Positions 1-32,470 of a stretch of 32,470 bases of DNA are shown one piece after another. The first letter of the stretch is position 1; each line of letters opens with the position of its first letter. The stretch is taken from IMG/VR virus record IMGVR_UViG_3300037189_026290, positions 1 through 32,470 of that record; one strand, given 5' to 3'. This stretch comes from a virus. The notes beneath the pieces were generated by a model. The model did not search any database, was not told the DNA's origin, and saw nothing but the letters and a program-made list of their open reading frames with translations. Made by a program: the position numbers and the translations under genes.

Positions 1-87
1 CGCTCCCCTCGCCCCCGCTGCTGCTGCCCCGCCGGTTGCCCAAGTGGACGGCCCCGCAGGGACTCAGAACGATCCTGAGGGCGGCAA
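1..87. repeat. Terminal overlap of a circular assembly (left copy)
   Basis: These 87 bases are identical to the last 87 bases of the window. The repeat lies in the middle of an open reading frame, and joining the two copies restores one uninterrupted gene (31734 to the end, then to 556). This fits an assembler overlap of a circular molecule rather than physical phage ends. Confidence 0.95.
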
Positions 88-556
88 GGAAATCACCGGT
101 CCCGCCGGAACACAAAACGAGCCAACCGAAGGGCAGCCCCCTGCCGGAGAGCAAGCCCCTGCCGGAGAGGCCCCTGCCGGAGAGCAGGCCCCTGCCGGAG
201 AGCAAGCCCCTGCCGGAGAGGGGCAGCCGGGCGTCGAAGAGACCGAAGAAGATCACGGCCCCGAGGCATATGCCCGCCGCGCCACGGCAATCGCGGATCG
301 TATCAAGGCATTGTCAGCCCGCGCCGAAGCGGCCGAGGCGCAGGCCAAAGCTTTGGTCACCCGCGCCGAAGCCGCTGAAAAAGCCCTTGCCAATCTGGAG
401 CGATCGCTTGGCGTCGGCGCCGCCAGCCACAAAGCGCAAGCAAAGATCGAACCGCCGTCGGCAATCGTCGCCACAATGACTCTTGAGCAATTCCGCGCCC
501 TTCCGCACGGCGAGCGAAGCGCATTCCTGCGCAAAGGCGGAAAAATCACCGAATAA
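2..556 (+). CDS. Head maturation protease-scaffold, C-terminal part (continues from 31734)
   Basis: This is the 3' part of the gene that begins at 31734 and crosses the circular junction; position 2 is the first base of codon 218 of 401. The part seen here is the scaffold region. It contains two copies of a GPAGTQN-type motif, then a run of five PAGE-type repeats, then a long alanine/glutamate-rich helix (about residues 310-365 of the whole protein) that should form a coiled coil. It ends with a basic tail near the stop. Scaffold domains of this kind direct coat assembly inside the procapsid and are then removed by the protease. The coat gene follows 51 bp downstream. The ORF beginning with the ATG at 44 is only a fragment of this frame. 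Confidence 0.88.
   Translation, partial: APLAPAAAAPPVAQVDGPAGTQNDPEGGKEITGPAGTQNEPTEGQPPAGEQAPAGEAPAGEQAPAGEQAPAGEGQPGVEETEEDHGPEAYARRATAIADRIKALSARAEAAEAQAKALVTRAEAAEKALANLERSLGVGAASHKAQAKIEPPSAIVATMTLEQFRALPHGERSAFLRKGGKITE
136..220 (+). repeat. Tandem PAGE-coding repeats in the scaffold
   Basis: Five copies of CCCCTGCCGGAGAG are separated by CAAG, G, CAG and CAAG. They encode an APAGEQ-type low-complexity segment. The spacers are whole-codon differences, so the frame is kept. Copy number could change by slippage, altering linker length between protease and coiled coil. Confidence 0.9.
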
Positions 557-607: not shown

Positions 608-1777
608 ATGGCAAACACCCTCACTTCCCTCATTCCCGACGTCTACGCCGCGCTTGACGTCGTTTCCCGCGAGCTGGTCGGATTCATCCCCTCCGTGGCC
701 CGCGATTCCAAAGCCGACCGCGTCGCCCTCAACCAGACCCTTCGCGATACAATTACGCAAAAGAATAGTGCCGGAGGTGACGTTACCCCCGGGATGTCTT
801 TGCCTAGCCGCGCGGATCAAACCGTTGACAATCGCGGTTTGACCATTACTAAAAGTCGCTTTTTTCCGTTCAGCTGGACGGGAGAGGAGCAGTATTCCGT
901 CAATCAGGGGCCTGGTTATTTGACGATTCGTCAAAACCAGATTGCCCAGGCGCTTCGCGCTGCGGTAAACGAGGTTGAGACCGACATTGCGACGGCCGCT
1001 TACAAGGGGGCCAGCCGCGCCTATGGAACGGCCGGAACCACCCCTTTCGGCACCAACCTTGGTGAGAGCGCTCAGCTCCGCAAGATCCTCGACGATAACG
1101 GCGCGCCCGCAAGCGACCGCAGTCTGGTCATGAACACCACGGCCGGAGCCGCGATCCGCACGCTGCTCAACAACCCGCTCAACGCCAACACGTCGCTGAA
1201 CGGTGACCTGACAGCGCAGGGCGTCATCCTGGATCTGAACGGTTTCAAGTTCCGCGAGAGCGCCCAGGTCGCCACCGTGACGGCCGGTGCGCTGGCTTCC
1301 GCTACCACCACCAATGCCGCGCTAACCGTCGGACAGACCGTCCTGCCGTTGGCAACGGCTGGCACCGGACTCGTGGCTGCGGGTGACATCATCACGCTGG
1401 CCAATGACACGAACAAGTACGTTGTCACGAGCGTCAGCTTTGCCGGTTCCGCTCCCGCATCCGGTGATTCCATCACCATTGCGGCCCCCGGGCTTCAAGT
1501 GGCTCAGGCCGCCGCAACCCGTGCCATTACCGTGGTGGCTACGTCCGCGCGTAACATTGGTTTCAGTCGCAATGCTATCGTGCTGGGTACGCGCCTTCCC
1601 GCGCTGCCTGCCGAAGGGGATCTGGCGATTTTCCGAGAGGTTGTCGTCGACGACCGCAGCGGACTGGCTTTCGAGGTCGCGGCCTACCCTGGCTTCCGCA
1701 TGGTCACTTACCATGTGTCGCTTGCCTGGGGCGTCTCGGTCTTCAAGCCCGAACACACCGCAGTCTTGCTCGGCTAA
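608..1777 (+). CDS. Major capsid protein, P22 coat (gp5) family
   Basis: The 389-residue protein resembles the P22-type coat family from start to end: an N-terminal MANTLTSLIPDVYAALDVVS segment, a TKSR-F-P-WTGEEQ segment near residue 80-95, the SRAYGTAGTTPFGT segment near 135-150, and a C-terminal AWGVSVFKPEHTA segment. An inserted beta-rich stretch (about residues 230-300) matches the expected place of the coat insertion domain. It should assemble into the procapsid shell with the scaffold encoded just upstream. The ATG has no Shine-Dalgarno site; it follows an A/C-rich leader of about 50 bases. A strong terminator follows the gene, as expected for the most abundant virion protein. The family call is from remembered sequence pattern. 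Confidence 0.88.
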   Translation: MANTLTSLIPDVYAALDVVSRELVGFIPSVARDSKADRVALNQTLRDTITQKNSAGGDVTPGMSLPSRADQTVDNRGLTITKSRFFPFSWTGEEQYSVNQGPGYLTIRQNQIAQALRAAVNEVETDIATAAYKGASRAYGTAGTTPFGTNLGESAQLRKILDDNGAPASDRSLVMNTTAGAAIRTLLNNPLNANTSLNGDLTAQGVILDLNGFKFRESAQVATVTAGALASATTTNAALTVGQTVLPLATAGTGLVAAGDIITLANDTNKYVVTSVSFAGSAPASGDSITIAAPGLQVAQAAATRAITVVATSARNIGFSRNAIVLGTRLPALPAEGDLAIFREVVVDDRSGLAFEVAAYPGFRMVTYHVSLAWGVSVFKPEHTAVLLG

Positions 1778-17099: not shown

Positions 17100-17587
17100 G
17101 CGATCACGAGGAGAAAATCACCGAGACGCTCCGGGTCGCCTGGAGTCGTGAGCAGGCCGCCGGTCGTGATCCGGTCTACACCCGCACGCCGCTGGACGAG
17201 ATGGTGGCACGCGAGGAGGGGGAGCATTTCGAGGAGCACGAGGTGCGTCTGGAGGCTTTCCGTCGCCTGCTATCGCTTTTCTTTGCCGACGGGCCGCATC
17301 CCGGGGATGTCATGCGCCGGGTCTATGCCGTGGCCAAGGCGCTCCGTCCCGAGCTGATCCTTAACATGTCGTGCAAGGAGATCGGCGGGATGTTCGGTGA
17401 GACCAAGGCCGCCGTCAGCTACCGCATCAAGCAGCTGGTCAACCGTCCCATCGCCGCCCTCTCGGGCCACAGCGCCCAGCTCCCCTGGCAGAAATCTTCC
17501 TCGGCCTGCGCCAAATACGCCGCGCGGGCCAAGGGCAATCAGAACCGCCGAAACCACAAACCCAAGAAAAAACCCGTCACATCATGA
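17096..17587 (+). CDS. HTH protein, sigma-factor-like or early regulator
   Basis: The 163-residue protein has an acidic N-terminal half and a clear helix-turn-helix at about residues 91-116 (MSCKEIGGMFGETKAAVSYR). The pattern 'SCKEIGxxxGxTKAAVSYRxK' resembles regions of sigma-70-like and phage late-control proteins that read DNA. The C-terminal 45 residues are basic (Asn/Arg/Lys-rich), probably unstructured. It lies before the ParB-like gene, overlapping it by four bases. A role as an early activator, perhaps of late genes, is an inference from the HTH and location. Confidence 0.7.
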   Translation: MSDHEEKITETLRVAWSREQAAGRDPVYTRTPLDEMVAREEGEHFEEHEVRLEAFRRLLSLFFADGPHPGDVMRRVYAVAKALRPELILNMSCKEIGGMFGETKAAVSYRIKQLVNRPIAALSGHSAQLPWQKSSSACAKYAARAKGNQNRRNHKPKKKPVTS

Positions 17588-19344
17588 GCAGTCACCCTGA
17601 GTTCCGCTTCGTCGCGATCGATCGCATCGCCAAGTCCCCGACCAATCCCCGCAAGGTTTTTCCGCCGGAATACATCACCGAACTGGCCTCCTCCATCAGC
17701 CTCAAGGGGATCATCTCCCCGCTGCTGGTCCGATCGACCGATGATCTGCCCGCTCCGGTGGGCCATGAGTATGAGCTGATCGCCGGGGAGTGCCGTCTCC
17801 GTGCCGCGGAGCAGGCCGGTCTCTCCGAGGTGCCCGTCCTGGTGCGCGATGATCTCTCGGCCAATGACGTGCTCGAGCTGCAGCTCATCGAGAATCTCCA
17901 GCGCCGCGAGCTCGATGTCCTCGAGGAGGCCGAGTCGTATGCCGCCCTGCTCGAGCTGGAGGATGCCGGGGTGAAGCGTCACACGGCCGAGTCGCTGGCC
18001 GCCGCGATCTCCAAGAGCACGCACTATATCCGCGAGCGGCTCAATCTCATGAAGCTCTCGGGCAAGGCCAAGGAGGCGATCCGCGCGGGGGAGCTGACCT
18101 TCTCGGTGGCCCGCCTCATCGCCACGATTCCCTCGCCCTCGCTAAGGGACCAGGCTCTCGATGAGGTGCTCCATCCGACCTATGAGGAGGAGCCGCTGAG
18201 CTCCCGCAAGGCCGCCGCCTGGATCCGCGAGCACTTCATGGTCGAGATCAAGAACGCCCCCTTCGACAAGGAGTCCGAGGAGCTGCTGCCGGTCGAGTAT
18301 GACGCCATGGGTCAGCGCGTGAAGGGTGGCGCCTGTGCCACCTGCCCCTGGCTCTCGGGGAATCTGCGTCCCGAGGTCCATGGGGAGGAGCATCCCGGCT
18401 CGGGGAATCCCGATCTCTGCATGCACCCCGGCTGCTACAGCGAAAAGCTCGAGGCCAGCTGGCAGGAGTCCCGTGCCGAGGCCCTGAAGGCCGGAAAGCG
18501 CGTCCTCTCCGAAAAGGAAGCCGAGTCGGAGATCAATCCCTATTACGCCGGGCTCGTCTGGAACTCCAAGTATGTCGCCCTCGGGGACAAGGTGCCCGCC
18601 GGAGAGCTGGCTGATCCGAGCGGCAAGCCGCCGACCTGGAAGAAGCTCCTCGCCAAGGTCTCGGTGAAGCCGGAGGTCTGCGTCCTGCGGGACAAGAGCC
18701 ATCGCCCGCTCGAGGTCGTGCTCAAGCGCGAGGCGGTCGCCGCCATCAAGCTCGAAGCCGAGAAAAGTGGCGAGGCCTCCCCACTGCGCGGCCGTGGTCA
18801 GAACCATCCCGAGGAAAAGCAGTCGAAGGAGATGAAGGATCAGGCCCGGGCCGCCGAGAAGCTCGAGACCAAGATCGCCGTCGAGACGCTCCATGCCGGG
18901 ATCCGCGCCATGGTCGATCTCTTTGCCTCGGAAAAAGCCCCGGAGGATTCCGTCCTCTGGCCCCGTCTACTGGATGCGGTCATGACTTATGGAATCACCG
19001 ATCTGATCGCCGATTACCTCGGGGTCTGGGATGCCGGTGCCGATCAGGATGCGGCGATCCGCGAGAAGCTGATGGGCTATCCCGTGGGGCAGGCCCGCGC
19101 TGCGCTGGCCCCCTATGTCCTGCTGATCCCGACGCTCGACCATGGGTGTGACTACCAGCTGAGGCAAGGAAATGTCCCAGGGGAGATTGTGGAGCTGCTG
19201 GGTCGCTTCGGCATCGATCTGGTCGCTATCAAAAAGACTGTTGAGGAGGCTCATGCCGAGGAGGCCAAGGAGCTGAAGAAGGCCGCCAAGGCCGCCCGCA
19301 AGCAACAGGCCGCCCAGGAGGAAGAGGAGGCCGCTGCTGTCTAA
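17584..19344 (+). CDS. ParB-like protein with added Cys domain
   Basis: This 586-residue protein has the ParB/Spo0J N-terminal fold. SPTNPRK is at about 18-24, followed by ELIAGECRLRAAEQAG at 64-79, which is the CTP-binding region (usually GERRxRA; here Cys70 replaces Arg). IENLQRRELDVLEEAESYA is at 102-120 and a KorB-like helix-turn-helix at about 134-158. Residues 251, 254, 279 and 284 are cysteines (CATC ... CMHPGC), a likely metal site. The C-terminal half is helical and charged, ending Ala/Glu/Lys-rich. No ParA gene is present, so its work may be transcription, genome organisation or origin control rather than partition. It could bind the phage origin repeats. Confidence 0.85.
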   Translation: MSSHPEFRFVAIDRIAKSPTNPRKVFPPEYITELASSISLKGIISPLLVRSTDDLPAPVGHEYELIAGECRLRAAEQAGLSEVPVLVRDDLSANDVLELQLIENLQRRELDVLEEAESYAALLELEDAGVKRHTAESLAAAISKSTHYIRERLNLMKLSGKAKEAIRAGELTFSVARLIATIPSPSLRDQALDEVLHPTYEEEPLSSRKAAAWIREHFMVEIKNAPFDKESEELLPVEYDAMGQRVKGGACATCPWLSGNLRPEVHGEEHPGSGNPDLCMHPGCYSEKLEASWQESRAEALKAGKRVLSEKEAESEINPYYAGLVWNSKYVALGDKVPAGELADPSGKPPTWKKLLAKVSVKPEVCVLRDKSHRPLEVVLKREAVAAIKLEAEKSGEASPLRGRGQNHPEEKQSKEMKDQARAAEKLETKIAVETLHAGIRAMVDLFASEKAPEDSVLWPRLLDAVMTYGITDLIADYLGVWDAGADQDAAIREKLMGYPVGQARAALAPYVLLIPTLDHGCDYQLRQGNVPGEIVELLGRFGIDLVAIKKTVEEAHAEEAKELKKAAKAARKQQAAQEEEEAAAV

Positions 19345-26925: not shown

Positions 26926-27531
26926 GTGGCGACTTCGCATTCAGATTCCGCGCTCATCGCAGAGTGCGCTGGGCAACACGGCGTCACCGTGCGTTCGGTT
27001 CAAAAATGGAGAAAAACTGAAGACCGGCGTTGGTTGGAATTTCTTCGATCCCGCGCGGCCAGCGCTCAGATCGGACTTTTCTCCGCACCGCAGCAAGAAC
27101 GCCTCACGCCCCAACAGGAGGAAGACCAGGCAGCCCGCCGATACGCTGGGTTGGCCCTCATGGCCGACCGTGCGATTGCCGAGGGGAATTTCCTCGAGAT
27201 GCGTTCCGCCATCAAGGCCGCTGAAGACGCGCACAAGCTGCTGAAAACCGTCCGGGAGAATACGACCTCCGTTTTGGTGAACAGTGGGAAACTCGTTCCC
27301 GCCGACGAAGTCTCTGAACTGATCCTTGGGAACCTCTCCCTGGTCAAACGCCTCATCGAAAATTTGCCCGACGTCCTGGCTTCCCGGATTGAGTCCGCTT
27401 CCGACGTTCGTGGGATAGTCCGGGCAGAAGTCCATTCGATCCTCAAAGAAATTTCTTTGTCGGTGAGGTCCATGCCGTTTGTTGCCGAGCCGAGTGCTCC
27501 AAATCATGAGCCCGTCCCTCGCGCGGATTGA
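26926..27531 (+). CDS. Terminase small subunit (Nu1-like)
   Basis: The 201-residue protein has an N-terminal helix-turn-helix (LIAECAGQHGVTVRSVQKW) that should bind cos DNA, a Gln-rich linker (APQQERLTPQQEEDQ) and a C-terminal helical part for binding the large subunit. It directly precedes the large subunit gene and overlaps it by 26 bp. The GTG start fits the TTTTGACA box; two other in-phase-unrelated GTGs lie just upstream. An inverted iteron copy lies within the gene at 27410-27420. Confidence 0.82.
   Translation: MATSHSDSALIAECAGQHGVTVRSVQKWRKTEDRRWLEFLRSRAASAQIGLFSAPQQERLTPQQEEDQAARRYAGLALMADRAIAEGNFLEMRSAIKAAEDAHKLLKTVRENTTSVLVNSGKLVPADEVSELILGNLSLVKRLIENLPDVLASRIESASDVRGIVRAEVHSILKEISLSVRSMPFVAEPSAPNHEPVPRAD
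27410..27420 (-). repeat. Inverted iteron copy inside the small terminase gene
   Basis: GTGGGATAGTC is the reverse complement of GACTATCCCAC, 11 of 12 bases of the iteron. Being within a coding gene and about 750 bp from the array, it could extend the control region. Confidence 0.6.
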
Positions 27532-29270: not shown

Positions 29271-29278
29271 TTTTGACT
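29271..29278 (+). promoter_or_regulatory. TTTTGACT start-proximal element
   Basis: The box lies 12 nt before ATG 29291, just after the terminase stop. Confidence 0.45.
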
Positions 29279-29290
29279 CGGGACACTGGC

Positions 29291-29644
29291 ATGTCCTTCA
29301 CTCAGCATCAGAGCGCCGACCTTACCGGCGTGAAACGTCTTTTTCTTCGGAAAATCGCTGACGGGACATTGACGGTCTCAGATCTCAAAAACCTTGCCGA
29401 GCAAGCCGGAGAAGCGGCCTTGCAAGGAAAAGCCAGCGTCGAAATCACTTCCCTTTCCGCAGATGGATCCGCCAGTTCCGGCGTGGTCGTCATGTCGGCC
29501 AATGACCTTTTGGTGCTGACAATGGATTTGCTCGACGTAATCGACCCAGTCGATTCAACCGTGGCTCCGCGCAATATCTTTGTAAAAGCCGACTTTAGCC
29601 GGAGCCGTGGCCCGTTTGACTTGAACCCCTTCCGGTGGCTCTGA
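29291..29644 (+). CDS. gpW-position protein (head-tail joining)
   Basis: The 117-residue protein lies between terminase and portal, the place of gpW in lambda, which joins tail to head. Residues 14-45 form helices (VKRLFLRKIADGTLTVSDLK) and a strand part follows (ASVEITSLSADGSASSGVVV). Lambda gpW is shorter (68 residues), so the equivalence is positional. The stop overlaps the portal start by ten bases. ATG 29291 is preferred to an in-frame TTG at 29273 because of the element spacing and the absence of sense upstream. Confidence 0.72.
   Translation: MSFTQHQSADLTGVKRLFLRKIADGTLTVSDLKNLAEQAGEAALQGKASVEITSLSADGSASSGVVVMSANDLLVLTMDLLDVIDPVDSTVAPRNIFVKADFSRSRGPFDLNPFRWL
29615..29621 (+). promoter_or_regulatory. 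TTTGACT start-proximal element
   Basis: The box lies 13 nt before the GTG start of the portal at 29635, inside the end of the preceding gene, where it reads FDL. Confidence 0.45.
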
Positions 29645-31299
29645 AATCCAAACAATCCAAGCCCTCGCAAAAGAAAAGCGGGGGCCGTCGTCAAACAGTT
29701 CGTCGCGGTAAAACGGCTGGGCTTGTCTTGCCTGAAAACCGATCTTTCGAGGAGGCATTGCCCAGTTACAACCGGCCCACGGTCTACCTGACCAGCATCG
29801 AAGCAAAAAAGGAACTCCCGTCTTGGGACCGGATTCGCCTGATGAACCACGCGCGGTGGCTCGTCAATAATTCCCCCATCGCCGCCCGCATCGTGCGAGG
29901 CATCTCGCGGTACGCCGTGGGGAACGGGCTGACGCCCCAAGCCCGCACGGCAAACAACGACTGGAATACAAAAGCCGAGCAACTTTTTGAAGACCGAGTG
30001 GCTACAGATGCCTTTGCCTTCGACAAAGCCGGATCGGTGAATTTCTACGACAGCCAGCGCTTGATCGTGGAGCAGATGGTGGCCGACGGGGAATTCTTTG
30101 CCCAGCTCTGCACCTCCGAGAACGGCGGAGCGATGTGCAAGTTCTTCGGTGCGGAGTACGTCGGCAGTCGCATGGGCGACGAGATCGACGGATGGCGCGA
30201 CGGCGTCATGGTCAACGATGATAACCGCCCCGTGCTTTATCGCGTGTTGAGCAACCCCATGATAAGGGACGGAATTTTTACAGATATCCCTTCGGACGAC
30301 CTCATTCACATCCGCAAGCTTCACCGTCATGGATTTCAGCGTGGGCTTACCTGGCTCTGTTCCTCGGTCTCCCTCATTCAGGATCTGCGGGAAATGCTGG
30401 AGAACGAGCAAGCCGCCGCGCGCTTGAACAGCAAGATCGGGCTTGTCATCGAATCGCCGGACGCAGGAAACCTTGGCATGGGTGCCAGCATGCAAAAACT
30501 GCGTGCACAAGCCGTCGAGAACAGTCTCGGGGGAACCCTTGGCGGCACTGGCGGAGGAGCCGGTGCAGCGGGGGGCTCATCCCTTACCGACGAGCAAATC
30601 ACCTTTGATCGTTTGGTCAGTGGAGTCGGAAACATCCAACTCAAGCCCGGAGAGAAACTGCAAGCTCACGAATTCGACCGTCCCAACACCAATTTTGCAC
30701 CCTGGACGGAATTTGTTGTCCGCTCCATTAGCTGGTCGTGCGGGATGCCGCCCGAGCTGCTGTGGAATATGACAGGCGTCGGGGGAGCGGTTACGCGCCA
30801 CGTTCTGCAAGACGCAGAGGTTTTTTTCAGCGAAATCCGCCAGATCCTTGAGTATCAGTACTGTCGCAGGTTTTGGAGATACTGGGTCTGGCACGCCATC
30901 AAGCGCGGAGACCTGGAATATCCCGGAGACGACTGGTGGAGATGCGACTGGATTGCTCCGCAAAAACTCACGGTCGATACCGGCCGGGATGGAGCCCTGC
31001 GGTTAAACCTCGTCCGCAGCGGTCTTCTTTCTTCCAAAAGGTATTTTGCCGAACTCGGCCAAGACGTCGACAGCGAAACGGACGACATCATCCGTGATTA
31101 CGCCCGCAAGAAAAAACGTGTCGGGGAAATTGCACAAGAGACCGGCGTCGAGCTGACCATGCCGGAAGTCTTCCCTCCGGCGCCCGGGGCCACGCATATC
31201 ATGCCCGCTGCGCGCGCAGCGGAGGGTTTTTTCCCGGATCATGAGGGCGCAGATGGATCTAAGAACCCGCGCCGCCTCTACCCGCGACTTTTTGCCTGA
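29635..31299 (+). CDS. Portal protein, lambda gpB family
   Basis: The 554-residue protein has a basic N-terminus and the portal hallmarks RLMNHARWLVNNSPIAARIV near residue 64-83, a beta-rich clip/wing region (SRMGDEIDGWRDGVMVNDDN), and a Gly-rich insert (GGTLGGTGGGAGAAGGSS) around 300-320. It also has a C-terminal WRYWVWHAIKRGDLEYPG stretch. It makes the dodecameric ring through which DNA enters. GTG 29635 overlaps the previous gene's stop. Near the end it carries the 18-bp palindrome (P-A-A-R-A-A-E). The protease gene follows after the Dps-like gene. Confidence 0.9.
   Translation: MALKSKQSKPSQKKSGGRRQTVRRGKTAGLVLPENRSFEEALPSYNRPTVYLTSIEAKKELPSWDRIRLMNHARWLVNNSPIAARIVRGISRYAVGNGLTPQARTANNDWNTKAEQLFEDRVATDAFAFDKAGSVNFYDSQRLIVEQMVADGEFFAQLCTSENGGAMCKFFGAEYVGSRMGDEIDGWRDGVMVNDDNRPVLYRVLSNPMIRDGIFTDIPSDDLIHIRKLHRHGFQRGLTWLCSSVSLIQDLREMLENEQAAARLNSKIGLVIESPDAGNLGMGASMQKLRAQAVENSLGGTLGGTGGGAGAAGGSSLTDEQITFDRLVSGVGNIQLKPGEKLQAHEFDRPNTNFAPWTEFVVRSISWSCGMPPELLWNMTGVGGAVTRHVLQDAEVFFSEIRQILEYQYCRRFWRYWVWHAIKRGDLEYPGDDWWRCDWIAPQKLTVDTGRDGALRLNLVRSGLLSSKRYFAELGQDVDSETDDIIRDYARKKKRVGEIAQETGVELTMPEVFPPAPGATHIMPAARAAEGFFPDHEGADGSKNPRRLYPRLFA
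31205..31222. repeat. 18-bp perfect palindrome in the portal gene
   Basis: CCGCTGCGCGCGCAGCGG, identical to 22263-22280 and read in the same frame (P-A-A-R-A-A-E) near the C-terminus of the portal. Confidence 0.9.
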
Positions 31300-31302
31300 G
31301 CC

Positions 31303-31728
31303 ATGCCGACATTATTCACCCTTGCTTCACTGCTTCGCAGCCTGCAGCTCTACGCGCACAACGCTCATCACACGGTCTGCGGGGAAAGTTTCTTTGCCGA
31401 CCACAAGTTCTTGGCCAATGCCTACGCGGCTTACGAAGAATCCTACGACAGCGTCATCGAGCTGGCTATCGGCGACGGAATGGTCTGTCCGCTTGTCGAG
31501 ATCCAGCGCGAAGCCGTGGATCTCCTTGAGGAACTCTCTCGGATGGAACTCGACCAACTGGCCACCCTCTGGCGCGGCGAAGGACAGATCCAATCGCTGA
31601 TTGATGGATTGTGTGCCGGGCAGAGTGACCAGGGCATTGTCCAAGTGCTGGGAACCATTGCTCAGGAATCCAAAGTGCGTCGCTACAAACTGGGCCGCCG
31701 GATAGAGGCATTTGACAAGAGCGAATAG
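31303..31728 (+). CDS. Dps/ferritin-like protein
   Basis: The 141-residue helical protein shows the Dps helix pair: SLQLYAHNAHHTVCGESFF, then a DHKFLANAYAAYEESYDSVI segment. Spacing matches E. coli Dps: His22 (H51), Gly27 (G56), Phe30 (F59), His34 (H63), Asp49 (D78) and Glu53 (E82) fall at the same intervals; the acid equal to D67 is missing (Ala38). Dps proteins bind iron or DNA and form 12-mers. Its position between portal and protease suggests a virion or assembly role. Alignment is from memory and the loss of one ligand makes ferroxidase activity uncertain. Confidence 0.75.
   Translation: MPTLFTLASLLRSLQLYAHNAHHTVCGESFFADHKFLANAYAAYEESYDSVIELAIGDGMVCPLVEIQREAVDLLEELSRMELDQLATLWRGEGQIQSLIDGLCAGQSDQGIVQVLGTIAQESKVRRYKLGRRIEAFDKSE
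31711..31717 (+). promoter_or_regulatory. TTTGACA start-proximal element
   Basis: The box lies 16 nt before ATG 31734, inside the end of the Dps-like gene (reads FDK). Confidence 0.45.
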
Positions 31729-31733
31729 CTATC

Positions 31734-32470
31734 ATGAGCCGAACCTGGTATGCCATTTCTAACACCACCGACAACAGCGCGGACATTGAGATCTATGACG
31801 AGATTGGCGGGTGGGGTGTTTCTGCCAAAGAATTCATCAAAGGCCTTGCCGCCCTCAGTGGAAAACACCTCAACCTCCGGATCAACTCTCCCGGGGGCAG
31901 CATTGTCGACGGGCAAGCCATCATCGCCGCGCTGAACCGTCACGTCGGAGGATTCACCGCATGGGTCGACGGCCTTGCGGCGTCCATGGCCAGTGTCATT
32001 GCTTGCGCTGCCGAGCGCTGCTACATGGCGGACGGGGCCATGATGATGATCCATCGGGCCAGCACCGTTTCCATGGGGGACGCAAGCGACTTGCGCAAGG
32101 ACGCCGATATCCTGGAAAAATTCGAGCGCGGATTGCTGAGCGTTTATCAGAAAAAGACGGGCCTCGAGGAACCGGCGCTTAAGGAAATGCTTGCTCAGGA
32201 AACGTGGATGGACGCCCTGGAAGCCGTGGCTCTTGGGTTTGCCGACGGGATCACCGATGCGCCTGCGGCAATGGCCAAGCTCAGCGCAGTGGAAATGCGT
32301 GCGCGATTTGACACCTTCCGATCAAAAAACATGAATCCTCAATCTTCCGCCACCAAAGCCTCCACGGAAAACCCGATCGTCACCGCTCCCCTCGCCCCCG
32401 CTGCTGCTGCCCCGCCGGTTGCCCAAGTGGACGGCCCCGCAGGGACTCAGAACGATCCTGAGGGCGGCAA
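31734..32470 (+). CDS. Head maturation protease (ClpP/S14-like), N-terminal part of protease-scaffold
   Basis: This is the 5' part of a 401-residue gene that continues at position 2. It has the ClpP-like order: NSPGGSIVDG (51-60, oxyanion loop), nucleophile Ser84 in GLAASMAS, general base His107 in MMIHRA, and an acid-bearing helix after (DASDLRKDAD). Lambda gpC-type and P2/HK97-type phages use related proteases to trim scaffold and coat in the prohead. It lies between the Dps-like gene and the coat gene. An internal ATG at 32331 could give a separate scaffold. The last 87 bases repeat positions 1-87. Confidence 0.9.
   Translation, partial: MSRTWYAISNTTDNSADIEIYDEIGGWGVSAKEFIKGLAALSGKHLNLRINSPGGSIVDGQAIIAALNRHVGGFTAWVDGLAASMASVIACAAERCYMADGAMMMIHRASTVSMGDASDLRKDADILEKFERGLLSVYQKKTGLEEPALKEMLAQETWMDALEAVALGFADGITDAPAAMAKLSAVEMRARFDTFRSKNMNPQSSATKASTENPIVTAPLAPAAAAPPVAQVDGPAGTQNDPEGG
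32307..32313 (+). promoter_or_regulatory. TTTGACA element before the internal scaffold start
   Basis: The box lies 17 nt before the in-frame ATG at 32331, inside the protease coding region. It supports internal initiation. Confidence 0.45.
32331..32470 (+). CDS. Scaffold protein from an internal start (continues at position 2)
   Basis: ATG 32331 is codon 200 of the protease-scaffold gene. It begins MNPQSSATKASTENP and would give a 202-residue scaffold without the protease, ending at 556. In lambda the scaffold Nu3 is made the same way from within gene C. The ATG follows an A-rich run (ATCAAAAAAC) and a TTTGACA box at 17 nt. This is inferred from layout; no direct evidence. Confidence 0.62.
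   Translation, partial: MNPQSSATKASTENPIVTAPLAPAAAAPPVAQVDGPAGTQNDPEGG
32384..32470. repeat. Terminal overlap of a circular assembly (right copy)
   Basis: These 87 bases are identical to 1-87. The codon phase is the same in both copies, so the genome joins here. Confidence 0.95.

Follow-up and report, generated by a model that had tools for sequence, protein, structure and literature searches.

The gene between the portal gene and the head maturation protease gene of the viral DNA analyzed here (the window, 32,470 nucleotides, record IMGVR_UViG_3300037189_026290) almost certainly encodes a member of the Dps superfamily. The explanation that we favor, at about even confidence, is that it is an accessory gene of the head operon for a phage Dps-type ferroxidase that is made with the head and is probably carried into the prohead.

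Genomic Setting of the Dps-Like Gene

The Dps-like gene and the head genes of the window are as follows.
31303..31728, plus strand, Dps-like (ferritin superfamily) protein of 141 aa with an ATG start, assigned from its fold, profile matches, and ligands
29635..31299, plus strand, portal protein of the lambda family (PF05136, E 1e-43)
31734..32470, plus strand, N-terminal part of a ClpP-type head maturation protease (phrog_133, E 2e-72), which leaves the window at its end and resumes at its start
1..556, plus strand, C-terminal part of the protease/scaffold frame if the record is circular (terminal repeat)
608..1777, plus strand, major capsid protein (P22 coat type), which shares 350 of 389 residues with the capsid protein that follows the protease in locus L010
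27479..29266, plus strand, large terminase subunit (GpA type), head operon context
29273..29644, plus strand, small, conserved 123-aa protein encoded between the terminase and portal genes, also present in loci L073/L074 (54% identity)
26926..27531, plus strand, probably the small terminase subunit (phrog_141 and DUF1441 matched weakly)

The flanking-gene matches confirmed that the gene lies between portal and protease in the head operon, as had been proposed from the letters of the window. A family match was sought for the 123-aa protein and none was found. The gap between the portal stop codon and the ATG of the Dps-like gene is 3 nt, and that between its stop codon and the ATG of the head protease is 5 nt; no sigma-70-like promoter or terminator above chance expectation was found around the gene when positions 31000-32000 were scanned. 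The 3- and 5-nt junctions suggest co-transcription, and the gene is probably transcribed together with the head genes in a late head operon.

Bases 1-87 are an exact direct repeat (87 bp) of bases 32384-32470, and the protease frame crosses the record ends in frame and runs on through bases 2-556, with the capsid gene (608-1777) next. The terminal repeat and the in-frame protease indicate that the window is probably one complete circularly permuted genome of ~32.38 kb, with a complete series of portal, Dps, protease/scaffold, and capsid genes in this order. Alternatively, the assembly may have been joined at a tandem repeat, a reading favored by the correspondence of the 87 bp to 29 codons of a Pro/Ala-rich linker. 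An ORF at 17584-19344 of the same record encodes 586 aa with ParB N-terminal and HTH domains.

Locus L010 has the same order of portal, Dps (62% identical), protease (87%), and capsid. The head genes of L073/L074 are close (portal, 69%; protease, 74%; capsid, 81% to L010); the portal-protease junction of L073/L074 is 22 nt long without a Dps gene, and no Dps-like gene was found anywhere in these two records. Portal and protease could both be located in 15 portal relatives, and 14 of these were without the gene. Because a close head-operon relative has an empty 22-nt junction, the gene is an accessory insertion that was gained or lost as a unit. The location had been called unusual, which is correct for the exact slot, whereas Dps proteins in general are frequently encoded by phages.

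Identification of the Protein as a Dps Homologue

The six residues on which the sequence-only reading had based its Dps assignment (His22, Gly27, Phe30, His34, Asp49, and Glu53) are all present in the ORF at the Dps spacing, and Ala38 is found at the position of E. coli D67, as it had stated. When the window was translated in six frames, the pattern H-x4-G-x2-F-x3-H-x14-D-x3-E matched once; it matched nowhere in 200 residue shuffles (63,331 residues). The AlphaFold model of the monomer (pLDDT 96.7, pTM 0.91) is a four-helix bundle with a short BC helix and without helix E (helices A, 4-24; B, 30-57; BC, 64-79; C, 85-104; D, 110-140), and the confident Dps/ferritin bundle agrees with the fold that had been expected. 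The top matches of Foldseek against the PDB were all Dps. In regards to VIA-align (Z up to 17.7), MrgA, other Dps proteins, and bacterioferritins were tied at Z of about 17, and with such equal scores the fold alone cannot separate Dps from bacterioferritin. A bacterioferritin or ferritin was rejected in favor of Dps on the Dps-type ligand positions and on the best profile matches, which were all Dps.

The single protein gave no match that reached the cut-off in Pfam, matched phrog_3636 (phage Dps, 'DNA binding protein') with an E value of 1e-5, and matched solved Dps chains with an E value of 0.04 at best. The profile of the family, built from 36 members, matched HP-NAP, MrgA, and other Dps chains among the solved structures with E values of 5e-10 to 1e-3, and its best matches were all Dps. 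Furthermore, PF00210 was matched by 34 of the 36 members and phrog_3636 by all 36 (best E 1e-13). The differences from the nearest relative at codon positions 1, 2, and 3 were 0.28, 0.25, and 0.63, as expected under purifying selection. That the resemblance is fortuitous, or that the ORF is no real gene, is hardly conceivable: the lack of a Pfam match for the protein alone speaks for such a reading, and the 62% identity with the protein encoded in this slot in L010, the third-position-biased substitutions, the high-confidence fold, and the viral relatives, about 60 in number, speak against it. A chance match was ruled out by the absence of the pattern from the 200 shuffles together with the fold and the relatives. 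The claim of a Dps-like protein thus holds by fold, profile, and invariant ligands.

Conservation and Distribution of the Family

Relatives were sought in viral contigs, in which two scans found about 60, and in 84,980 species genomes, in which one scan found 2. The alignment of 36 non-redundant members showed no variation at R12, Q15, H19, H22, F30, D33, H34, F36, Y41, D49, and E53, and 35 of the 36 have G27; the residues first named are therefore conserved in all homologues aligned, with the exception of G27 in one. The position of D67 is occupied by Gly (30 members), Ala (3), Ser (2), or Gln (1) and is never acidic, and the position of the Dps Trp holds Asn or His, with one Ile. Because the D67 position is non-acidic, the protein is classed as a diverged Dps-superfamily variant, predicted to have an altered site, rather than as a canonical Dps.

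A member (E <= 1e-8) was present in 1 of 387 Verrucomicrobiota genomes, and no close member was found in 50,697 records of isolated phages. The family is an environmental phage family that is almost confined to phages. A host gene caught by a prophage was rejected as its origin on the 2 genome-collection records and the single Verrucomicrobiota genome. Loci L007/L008 were rejected as relatives; their similarity is limited to a C-terminal stretch, and they are unrelated.

The majority of the family members lie away from head genes. Members were found beside RecT and exonuclease (L002/L005 and L012/L014), beside Sak4 (L021/L024), and beside a primase-helicase (L052-L068), and in three loci the gene lies in reverse orientation between the terminase and portal genes in the manner of a moron (L022, 2530-2943; L023, 5888-6301; L030, 6503-6913). 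No S78 protease was found near any of the 63 loci of the family, nor near any of the 80 HWQT-type loci listed. The many other contexts and the lack of S78 neighbors indicate that the role of the wider family has no need of the head operon; the simplest such role is the control of iron and peroxide inside the cell, and the link to heads belongs to sub-lineages. The HWQT..A.HKA-type Dps-like proteins (DUF5856-like, about 120 aa) form a family that is very common in viral contigs, with at least 80 loci (L108-L187).

Predicted Metal Site and Charge

In Dps proteins, two His residues of one subunit and an Asp and a Glu of its twofold mate form the iron site, which oxidizes Fe2+ with H2O2 and thereby stops Fenton damage to DNA. 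A typical Dps is a hollow cage of 12 subunits that oxidizes Fe2+ with H2O2 or O2 and stores the iron as a mineral. The four ligands H22, H34, D49, and E53 match E. coli H51, H63, D78, and E82 in helices A and B, and the fifth ligand, an acidic residue at H63+4 (D67), is absent at Ala38. Because the four ligands are invariant, Dps-type iron chemistry is expected, and a working metal/ferroxidase site is predicted with good confidence. The loss of D67 and the fixation of H19 and D33 lead us to expect that the iron site is altered.

The protein has a pI of 4.8 with 12 Lys and Arg versus 21 Asp and Glu, and helix A begins at residue 4, so that the Lys/Arg-rich N-terminal tail is missing; most relatives are likewise acidic. 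It had been suggested that the protein may compact DNA, and these properties do not support compaction in the manner of E. coli Dps. The 'DNA binding protein' label of phrog_3636 and a basic cluster in the last helix (KVRRYKLGRR) are in favor of E. coli-type compaction during packaging or entry, but direct compaction of this kind by an acidic, tail-less protein is very unlikely.

Dps Domains and Phage Heads in Other Loci

The head-operon members (the window, L010, L011, and L070) form one clade with a support of 100/99. The head modules in this clade are very different, and the portals of the window and L011 are only 24% identical.

The Dps domain of L001/L006 is part of a protein of 272 aa, in which it is flanked on either side by RLREL-type peptides, and the peptide occurs 4 times in the neighboring 598-aa protein of L001 versus about 0.02 expected. 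Peptides of the RLREL(S/A)A type repeat in adjacent head-region proteins (L001, 4094-6708; L006, 5027-6720). The peptides may be head-targeting or maturation-cleavage signals. The Dps gene of these loci is located two genes upstream of a major head protein (phrog_1005, E 7e-37). The gene after Dps gave no match in PHROG, Pfam, the PDB, or the phage collection except for one weak match of unknown function, has few homologues, and gave a poor AlphaFold model (pLDDT 48); it is likely a protease-scaffold, as its motifs suggest. Because the protease identity is unsupported by matches, the case of L001/L006 depends on the next gene, that of the major head protein.

The search pattern for classical phage Dps (H..HW.V.G..F...H) gave at least 120 loci. 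Among the 120 classical phage Dps ORFs listed, at least 13 combine the Dps domain with a head maturation protease in one ORF, as follows.
Fusions of Dps to Peptidase_S78: L258, L267, L277, L288, L233, and L324
Other Dps-protease fusions: with phrog_9427 in L281 and with phrog_2753 in L264
Dps-protease fusions recognized by a home-made profile: L250, L323, L331, L344, and L347

Both domain orders occur, and the fused state required 4 changes on the tree of the Dps domain, a tree calculated from few columns. Moreover, the BFVD contains Dps-fold regions in proteins named 'Prohead protease'.

The gene immediately downstream of the head-tail connector gene in the podovirus ctEw122 is Dps-like and belongs to DUF5856. 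ORF78 of LIMEstone1 (L089, 2552-2905) matches DUF5856 with an E value of 9e-29 and is annotated as a 'confirmed structural protein'; it was recovered from virions by mass spectrometry with 3 unique peptides and 28% coverage (Table 2, PMC3296691). In regards to Sajous1, gp217 from the CsCl-purified phage was modeled as a ferritin (PMC10892097). The label 'starvation-inducible transcriptional regulator' that RefSeq and PHROGs give to DUF5856 looks misleading for a Dps-related group of which ORF78 was recovered from virions. The tie between Dps and heads that the sequence-only reading had drawn for the window recurs elsewhere, in the clade, the protease fusions, and the DUF5856 virion protein. 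The link to the protease is not general, as the 63 family loci and the 80 listed HWQT-type loci without a nearby S78 protease indicate. The recurrence beside head genes suggests that some phages build an iron-oxidizing protein into or alongside their heads.

Proposed Role and Alternatives

We propose that a phage-specific gene of the Dps branch of the ferritin superfamily was inserted as an accessory gene where portal and head protease otherwise adjoin, and that it is transcribed as part of the late head operon. The subunits would form a small Dps-like cage, and the dimer interfaces would hold di-iron sites composed of H22 and H34 from one subunit and D49 and E53 from the other. Such a site would oxidize Fe2+ with H2O2 or O2 and would remove the reagents that cut DNA. 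Less surely, the protein may enter the prohead or stay bound to the head and guard the packaged or injected genome. The probable synthesis together with portal, protease, scaffold, and capsid argues that the protein most likely acts at the head. Its presence in the mature virion of the window phage we judge to be slightly short of an even chance. Counted against the proposal are the non-acidic D67 position and the missing Dps Trp, so that the iron site may differ; the virion mass spectrometry, which concerns a remote relative and few peptides; and the position of most members away from head genes, several of them by RecT, Sak4, exonuclease, or primase-helicase. In a wider sense, several distinct phage groups may have recruited Dps-type ferroxidases into their heads via the head-maturation protease module, which we put forward tentatively. 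The coupling would take three forms: a free adjacent gene (the window), head-region peptide tags (L001/L006), and one polypeptide with the protease (L267, L288, L277, and others).

The members beside recombination genes make an intracellular antioxidant role the main rival. The protein would then be a ferroxidase of the infected cell, not of the virion, that lowers free iron and peroxide late in infection and borrows the head-operon promoter, that is, an auxiliary metabolic or host-tolerance gene. We regard this as a serious possibility, although one that we are inclined to doubt. It agrees with the variety of contexts, which include recombination and replication genes, with the moron-like, opposite-strand gene of L022/L023/L030, with the absence of the gene from all but one of the 15 portal relatives, and with the interpretation of gut-phage DPS enzymes as a means of oxidative-stress tolerance in the part of PMC8008677 that deals with them. 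It agrees less well with the single clade of head-operon members across very different head modules and with the head-region peptides fused on both sides of Dps in two loci (L001/L006), and the Dps-protease fusions are hard to account for by expression timing alone.

The position between portal and protease and the Dps-protease fusions of other phages would also suit a head-assembly factor, a core or connector chaperone in which the Dps bundle is a mere scaffold and the metal site a relic. The invariance of the four ligand positions in 36 diverse members and the close relatives L073/L074, which keep the head genes without the Dps-like gene, make this improbable. An iron-based entry has been proposed for the ferritin of Sajous1 (PMC10892097), and by analogy iron might be carried on the particle as a bait for host iron receptors (the 'ferrojan horse'). 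TonB- and FeoB-deficient hosts were infected by Sajous1 as well as the wild type (PMC10892097), and the gene of the window lies with head genes, not tail genes, so that we give this idea very little credence.

Phage Dps proteins and a virion-borne relative are already known. Neither the slot of the window gene nor the recurrent coupling of Dps with head proteases was found in the literature searched, the coverage of which was incomplete, and the same literature gave no description of a Dps or ferritin fused to a prohead protease. Phage Dps-like genes are widespread and are usually labeled as 'DNA binding protein' or 'transcription regulator' or regarded as host-helping enzymes. The ties to proteases and the virion proteomics of a remote relative lead to the testable claim that some tailed phages put an iron-oxidizing Dps domain in or on the head. 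If this is true, the genome would be defended chemically inside the particle or just after entry, the virions would bring their own iron/peroxide-scavenging cage or bundle for the packaged or injected DNA, and the occurrence of Dps domains in one ORF with head proteases would be accounted for.

Comparison with Known Systems

The protein resembles the Dps family (HP-NAP, Bacillus MrgA, Listeria Dps, and E. coli Dps; PF00210) in its bundle with a BC helix and in the H/H/D/E ligands at the exact spacing. It differs from that family in the Gly, Ala, Ser, or Gln at D67, the replaced Trp, and the additional invariant H19 and D33; the protein of the window is also shorter, acidic, and without the DNA-binding tail, and its family occurs almost only in phages. 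All 36 members match phrog_3636 (phage Dps), and they form a clade separate from the classical HWNV-type phage Dps. In regards to DUF5856 (phrog_858, including RB49 rI.-1 and LIMEstone1 ORF78), the podovirus member shares the ligand pattern in the A and B helices, the hhalign probabilities were 94% with P0003 and 89% with LIMEstone1 ORF78, and PF19174 was matched weakly by 18 of the 36 members. Unlike the window family, DUF5856 is a different subfamily of about 117-140 aa that is mostly outside the head operon in the phages seen.

The Dps-like enzymes of 'Gratiaviridae', Flandersviridae, and Lactobacillus phages are likewise phage-encoded Dps proteins of the ferritin superfamily; the part of PMC8008677 concerned with them discusses them as aids to an anaerobic host and describes no link to head genes. 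Encapsulins, which in the relevant part of PMC9321382 are protein shells with an iron-storing ferritin-like cargo, are comparable only in the way that they work, and unlike a virion, an encapsulin is a cellular nanocompartment.
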